The notes under the pieces are model-generated. The model did not search any database. It was not told where the DNA came from and saw nothing but the letters and a program-made list of their open reading frames with translations. Below, one piece after another: positions 24,967 to 59,028 of a DNA stretch of 64,000 nt. Numbering within the stretch: the first letter of the stretch is position 1; the number at the start of each line of letters is the position of its first letter. A program made the translations under genes and the position numbers. The stretch is from Meiothermus ruber DSM 1279 (GTDB lineage: Bacteria > Deinococcota > Deinococci > Deinococcales > Thermaceae): assembly GCF_000024425.1 (NCBI RefSeq), contig NC_013946.1, positions 2,046,001 to 2,110,000 of the forward strand, written 5' to 3'.

Positions 24967-25377
24967 TTAGGCTCCGGAATTCCAGAGGGTCTGAAGACCC
25001 GGCAAGCCCTGTAGTTTTTCGTCGCGGGTCACCAGCACTGCGCCCAGGCGAAGTGCGGCAGCGGCAATGAAGCGGTCGGCGGGGTCGGGGTGAGGCAGGG
25101 GCAGGTGATCGGCCTCCACGGCAGTGGGGGCATCCAGAGGCACTACCTCGATGCCGGGCACCTGCAAGGCTTGCTCGAGCCAGCGCCGCGAATCCAGCCG
25201 GAAGGCCAGCCGGTCTTTCCGGGCCAGCACGCTCACCTCCCAGGCGCTGATGGCCGAGACGAAGAGGGCCTGTTGCATGCGGGCCTCTTCCAGCAAAGGC
25301 TCGAGTCCGTTGGGAAGCTGGGCAGGGTCGGCCAGAAAGTACACCCAGGCGTGGGTATCGAGCAGGTAGCGTTTCAA
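24967..25377 (-). CDS. vapC: VapC-type PIN-domain toxin
   Basis: A 136-residue PIN-domain ribonuclease. The acidic active site is visible as D7 (YLLDTHAW), E47 (ISAWEVS), D98/D101 (DPADRFIAAAA) and D119 (VTRDEKL). These proteins cleave RNA and are held in check by the partner antitoxin. The start codon overlaps the antitoxin stop (ATGA at 25374-25377), the usual antitoxin-first layout. Confidence 0.9.
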   Translation of the reverse strand: MKRYLLDTHAWVYFLADPAQLPNGLEPLLEEARMQQALFVSAISAWEVSVLARKDRLAFRLDSRRWLEQALQVPGIEVVPLDAPTAVEADHLPLPHPDPADRFIAAAALRLGAVLVTRDEKLQGLPGLQTLWNSGA

Positions 25378-25711: not shown

Positions 25712-25854
25712 TTATACGCATTTCGGTAGTATCGTTCACTTTGACAAGTCTAAACGATACTACCAAAATGCTTTTCTACTCCCTTCGGTCGGCTTGAATC
25801 CTTCACCTCTGACTGCGCAGGGCGGTGAAGGATTCAAGCGGAAGCGGTATTATA
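25712..25854. repeat. 143-bp two-hairpin intergenic repeat, copy 1
   Basis: This block matches 58886-59028 at about 133 of 143 positions. It contains two inverted repeats. The first pairs CGGTAGTATCGTT with AACGATACTACC (25724-25763). The second pairs TTGAATCCTTCACC with GGTGAAGGATTCAA (25794-25836). A short link CTTTTCTACTCCCTTCGGTC lies between. It lies directly behind the rfbA stop (minus strand) and contains no ORF of note. It could be a non-autonomous mobile element or a structured transcript end. Confidence 0.9.
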
Positions 25855-32740: not shown

Positions 32741-32752
32741 CGGGGTGATCGG

Positions 32753-32840
32753 CTAGGGGTGCCCCTATAGGGGCTGAGAGCAGGGTAAACCCTGTAACCC
32801 TTGGAACCTGATCCGGTTAGTACCGGCGGAGGGAAGCCCA
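32753..32840 (+). promoter_or_regulatory. TPP riboswitch (THI box)
   Basis: The conserved THI-box parts are present in order: GGGGTGCCCC at the P1/P2 side, GGGGCTGAGAG, the paired CAGGGTAAACCCTG (variable P3 arm), ACCTGATCCGG, and the closing GGAGGGAAGCC. It binds thiamine pyrophosphate in the leader of thiE-thiS-thiG-thiO-thiC-thiD and should lower expression when thiamine is plentiful. Confidence 0.95.
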
Positions 32841-32873
32841 TGGAGAAATCCCTACAATCTGACGTGCGCCTTG

Positions 32874-58885: not shown

Positions 58886-59028
58886 TTATGCGCATTTCGG
58901 TAGTATCGCTCACTTTGACAAGCCTAAACGATACTACCGAAAGGCTTTTCTACTCCCTTCGGTCGGCTTGAATCCTTCACCTCTGACTACGCAGGGCGGT
59001 GAAGGATTCAAGCGGAAACGGCATTAGA
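58886..59028. repeat. 143-bp two-hairpin intergenic repeat, copy 2
   Basis: Matches 25712-25854 at about 133 of 143 positions. Both hairpins are kept, CGGTAGTATCG with CGATACTACCG and TTGAATCCTTCACC with GGTGAAGGATTCAA. Differences are mostly single-base, several of them retaining pairing. It lies behind the alkaline phosphatase gene, and its edge supplies that gene's TAA stop. Confidence 0.9.

Follow-up and report, generated by a model that had tools for sequence, protein, structure and literature searches.

The window, a 64,000-bp stretch of the Meiothermus ruber DSM 1279 genome, contains two copies of a short hairpin-forming repeat, each situated behind a minus-strand gene, as a sequence-only reading had described. 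Copy 1 (TACGCATTTCGG...GCGGTA; 25715-25849, plus strand) lies beside a nucleotidyltransferase gene (PF00483; 25868-26941, minus strand), and copy 2 (58889-59023, plus strand) adjoins an alkaline phosphatase gene (PF00245; 59024-60565, minus strand). A PIN-domain protein, possibly a VapC-type toxin, is encoded near copy 1 (24967-25377, minus strand). The same reading had put the match between the copies at about 93% over 143 bases with abrupt edges. We measured 134 identities in the 143 positions (94%), and the similarity indeed dropped off abruptly.

The boundaries of the unit were set by aligning the flanks of 97 copies. The unit is 135 bp long, comprises two palindromes and a linker, and has a direct repeat of 3 bp, TNA, on either side. 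Over this length, copies 1 and 2 are identical at 127 of 135 positions, and both are bordered by TTA. For copy 1, these direct repeats are at 25712-25714 and 25850-25852, the latter separated by 15 bp from the nucleotidyltransferase stop codon. For copy 2, they are at 58886-58888 and 59024-59026, the latter being the minus-strand TAA stop of the alkaline phosphatase gene. The element starts with TACGCATTTCGG and finishes with GAAACGGTA. Its terminal sequences, TACGCATTTCGG and TACCGTTTCCGC, match imperfectly when inverted, agreeing by inspection at about 7 of 12 positions.

Both copies folded as proposed earlier, into two separate hairpins joined by a fixed linker. Hairpin 1 occupies 54 nt, the linker 20 nt and hairpin 2 48 nt. 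In copy 1, hairpin 1 (25718-25771) has a 19-bp stem and a 3-bp inner stem, and is followed by the conserved linker TTTTCTACTCCCTTCGGTCG (25772-25791) and by hairpin 2 (25792-25839), which has a 16-bp stem. The corresponding parts of copy 2 are at 58892-58945, 58946-58965 and 58966-59013, all on the plus strand as in copy 1. The folding energies of the two copies had z-scores of -6.5 to -11.3 relative to shuffled sequences, with two hairpins in each, and the hairpins were very stable on either strand. The earlier statement that the repeat holds no open reading frame was only partly right: the element has one open frame, yet nothing points to a gene.

Occurrence and mobility of the element

The source genome is complete, a single contig of 3,097,457 bp. 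A BLAST search with the repeat, which had been suggested together with a search of relatives, returned about 33 strong matches in this genome, far above chance expectation. Among 40 relatives, four carried the repeat, all of them Meiothermus: G008 with about 60-90 copies, and G013, G011 (M. taiwanensis) and G009 with fewer each. It was not found in the 13 remaining genus genomes or in 23 genomes outside the genus. An exact 30-mer scan of 84,980 species genomes, a collection that may omit the records of the source genome and very near ones, matched only Meiothermus sp. KatS3mg071 and M. taiwanensis. No credible copies were seen in the plasmids, phages and viral contigs searched.

The copies are highly uniform at their edges. 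Exactly 135 bp separated the flanking repeats in 77 of the 97 distinct copies, and the left and right TNA were identical in 81 of 97 (TCA in 26, TTA in 23, TGA in 21 and TAA in 11). The middle base of the left and right TNA agreed in 88 of 97 copies, compared with about 25% expected. The element thus inserts at TNA and duplicates those 3 bp, and it favors GGTnTnAnACC, the weak palindrome obtained when the target was reconstructed. Such a palindromic target would fit a symmetric transposase-target complex.

We searched the joined flanks of 27 copies of the source genome in the four relatives. Uninterrupted sites with a single TNA were found in at least one relative for L002, L006, L010, L012, L014, L015, L019 and L021 (at least seven loci). 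L002 is copy 2 of the window, and M. taiwanensis is uninterrupted there, with a single TTA. Target duplications and empty sites, both named earlier as checks, were therefore found. The sequence-only reading would have been undermined if only two copies existed and relatives carried them at identical loci; copies were instead numerous and differed in location between relatives. One stop codon was occupied in opposite orientations by copies with different loop subtypes in the source genome (L015 in G000) and in G013 (L044), so that two independent insertions probably took place there.

Taken together, the repeat is very probably a non-autonomous DNA transposon, a MITE, of 135 bp with two side-by-side palindromes. 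It shows several of the features by which a MITE is recognized: it is short and without a transposase gene, it duplicates its target, its copy number is high, and it is polymorphic between relatives. Of the two interpretations offered earlier, the MITE-like mobile palindrome is the one borne out, by the TNA duplications, the empty sites and the species-specific copies. No earlier description of the family was found in the literature searched, whose scope excluded subscription journals and ISfinder. The Meiothermus ruber group has in this repeat a new MITE family, although one of a kind already known. The family is mobile, has been active recently in evolutionary terms, and was amplified separately in several Meiothermus species.

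The paired hairpins also recall the PATEs of Haloquadratum, which likewise lack a transposase and have near-terminal palindromes at both ends (PMC3119063). The element could accordingly be derived from IS200/IS605, in which case a Y1 HUH transposase would read its two subterminal hairpins in single-stranded form. The hairpins near both ends resemble those of IS200/IS605 ends and PATEs, and two Y1_Tnp matches exist in the source genome. However, no copy of the element was seen beside these two Y1 genes, the element makes a clean 3-bp TNA duplication at a palindromic target, and PATEs are defined as making no target duplication (PMC3119063). This origin is extremely improbable, and the TSD led us to rule it out.

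Several copies departed from the common arrangement. Flanks were 99-100% identical between the source genome and M. taiwanensis at L022/L186 and L023/L188, compared with 80-88% at most other loci, which suggests recent transfer between species. The loop of hairpin 1 at L026/L182 and that of hairpin 2 at L154 had the opposite orientation to that in almost every other copy, suggesting DNA-level inversion between the arms. An apparent solo hairpin-1 element was noted at L127 (G008:C2:276300-278500, about 1450-1513). A decayed right end of the MITE lies at the TAA stop of a Lon-type protease gene (L076, position 3394; about 1953390 in the source genome).

The transposase and resident insertion sequences

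The MITE is probably moved in trans by a DDE transposase, which would recognize its ends and join it to the target with a 3-bp stagger. A search by end patterns revealed no autonomous parent in the five carriers (the source genome, G008, G009, G011 and G013) or in 13 other genus genomes, and searches via IS5-family transposases and via shared sequence beyond truncated copies found none either. This speaks against the MITE reading, as do the terminal inverted repeats, whose first 12 bases agree at about 7 positions and which are poor for a classical MITE. A MITE usually, though not necessarily, has its ends in common with a known autonomous element. The parent may have been lost or may lie outside the 18 genus genomes. 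A pair of ends 1397 bp apart (L112, G008:C2:122942-124344) was considered as a parent and rejected; it proved to be an IS256-family insertion in the hairpin 2 region of the MITE, with repeats of about 9 bp.

A duplication of 3 bp at TNA suggests an IS5/IS1031-like enzyme, a view that we consider about evenly balanced between right and wrong. IS5 elements of the IS1031 group (ISLrh) reportedly insert at TNA and produce exclusively a 3-bp repeat (PMC12016507), and in its 3-bp TNA duplication the Meiothermus MITE resembles this group. However, its ends, TACGCATTTCGG/TACCGTTTCCGC, are unlike those of the local IS5-family elements (GAGACTGTC...) or of ISLrh. Because of these differing ends, the MITE was not filed under the IS5/IS1031 group.

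The resident IS5-family elements themselves duplicate TNA, but their ends (GAGACTGTC...) are unrelated to those of the MITE, which is a further point against the MITE reading. Among them, a two-ORF IS with ends GAGACTGTCTTAATA matches IS5 in NCBIfam. The window holds an IS5-family transposase copy with these ends (L080, 21145-21555, plus strand). In G008, this two-ORF IS was located exactly at the right end of the MITE in 6 of 9 examined copies, and in the source genome an IS5-family IS lies beside the left end of the MITE at L009. The two-ORF IS could therefore be thought to move the MITE specifically, given the equal 3-bp TNA duplication, the NCBIfam match and the abutting copies. This is decidedly unlikely, since the ends of the two elements are unrelated, the pattern fits insertion of the IS into existing MITE TSDs, and its targets away from the MITE (L094, L200 and L201) lack the GGTnTnAnACC motif. 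The IS copies are almost identical to one another although the MITEs next to them are diverse, which indicates that the MITE is a target of the IS. The MITE thus gives IS5-family insertion sequences a place to land. IS5-family elements were seen exactly at MITE TSDs at L067, L093, L103, L156, L158, L164 and L009. At L093, L164 and L009, the TNA copies on the flanks disagreed in part, a mismatch for which simple nested insertion does not account.

Like bacterial MITEs mobilized in trans (PMC10969869), the element is short, non-coding, multicopy, intergenic and hairpin-forming, and it duplicates its target. It differs from them in having two separate palindromes rather than one long inverted repeat, very poor terminal inverted repeats, and no parental IS found among the 18 genus genomes. 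The palindromic elements of Rickettsia (RPEs), as far as they are described in PMC10969869, are also palindromic repeats of about 150 bp, and as with them the insert has a length divisible by three (135+3=138) and contains one open frame. In that description, RPEs lie in frame within genes, whereas no convincing in-gene copy of the Meiothermus element was found. REP-type repeats and the insertion of IS1111 into QMITE2, to the extent covered by PMC10969869, share with it the use of a repeat as a preferred IS landing site. In contrast to REP repeats, the Meiothermus element is a precise TSD-flanked unit, and no RAYT linkage was found. For a thermophile, it provides a non-autonomous transposon with clear boundaries and recent mobility, and the empty sites in relatives allow its transposase to be sought directly.

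Landing sites and the RNA alternative

Genes were called by a simple codon-usage caller on sequences from which the element had been taken out. Thirty of 82 independent insertions were at the exact position of a TAA or TGA stop codon (31 of 82 when the intact TSD of L017 is used), and copy 2 of the window was among them. TNA includes both TAA and TGA, so the duplication restores the stop codon and the gene is left intact. At L021, an ATGA overlap with an empty site in G013, the terminal A of the element also rebuilds the downstream ATG. Insertion into such sites would regenerate the stop, and at an ATGA overlap the ATG as well, so surviving copies would be expected largely at stop codons or in intergenic DNA 3' of genes. 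The pattern could be explained without any host function. The 3-bp TNA rule lets the element persist in a gene-dense genome, because it lands on stops that its duplication repairs. We found no convincing copy within a gene. One candidate, L072, was rejected because its ORF really extends upstream through the open frame of the element.

Insertions were also concentrated in intervals between convergent genes (38 of 79, compared with 28 of 173 background intervals; P ~2e-7). A refinement of the MITE reading is that the transposase is actively drawn to gene ends, for example via termination of translation or transcription. Insertions per TNA site were 0.178 at stop codons and 0.084 in the next 100 bp (Fisher P ~0.002), and one stop codon was independently struck twice. 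However, the case for strong stop-codon targeting weakened once the null was confined to TNA sites in each insertion's own intergenic interval: stops accounted for 27 of 67 insertions, compared with 22.9-24.7 expected (P 0.07-0.2). Active targeting is therefore unlikely. TNA specificity and selection against damage to genes and promoters explain most of the excess at stop codons, leaving a residual of about twofold. A combined scheme might be imagined, in which TNA specificity and terminal bases matched to the genetic code make stop codons and ATGA overlaps safe harbors that each insertion rebuilds, gene ends exert some active attraction, and an IS5-like transposase recognizes the paired terminal hairpins. 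We regard this scheme as a whole as doubtful, to the same degree as active targeting.

The placement at 3' ends could alternatively reflect a structured RNA or terminator cassette, whose hairpins terminate transcription or shield the 3' ends of mRNAs, perhaps bidirectionally between convergent genes. The hairpins are very stable on both strands, the element is strongly enriched at 3' ends and in convergent-gene intervals, and TTTTCT follows hairpin 1 on the plus strand. The loss of promoter insertions, however, accounts for the 3' bias equally well. The minus strand has no T run after the hairpins, the stop-codon insertions showed no orientation bias relative to the gene (18 versus 14), and close relatives differ in which copies they carry. 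The sequence-only reading had also proposed that pairing is largely kept where copies differ. Over many copies this was weakly true, with 95.7% of cells paired compared with 95.1% in shuffles, and the difference came mostly from a single U-A/C-G change between subfamilies. Six pairs had double changes, in 31 cells compared with 11.7 in shuffled alignments, and one column pair dominated this signal. The weak covariation and the lack of orientation bias do not support a conserved RNA, and we consider the cassette quite improbable. The earlier suggestion of a structured RNA tail spread through the genome is likewise not supported: the element occurs in both orientations, a T run stands only behind hairpin 1 on one strand, and covariation is small. 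The repeat had no match in Rfam, and the only match of that search was a TPP riboswitch elsewhere in the window (32745-32851, plus strand), at the gathering threshold.
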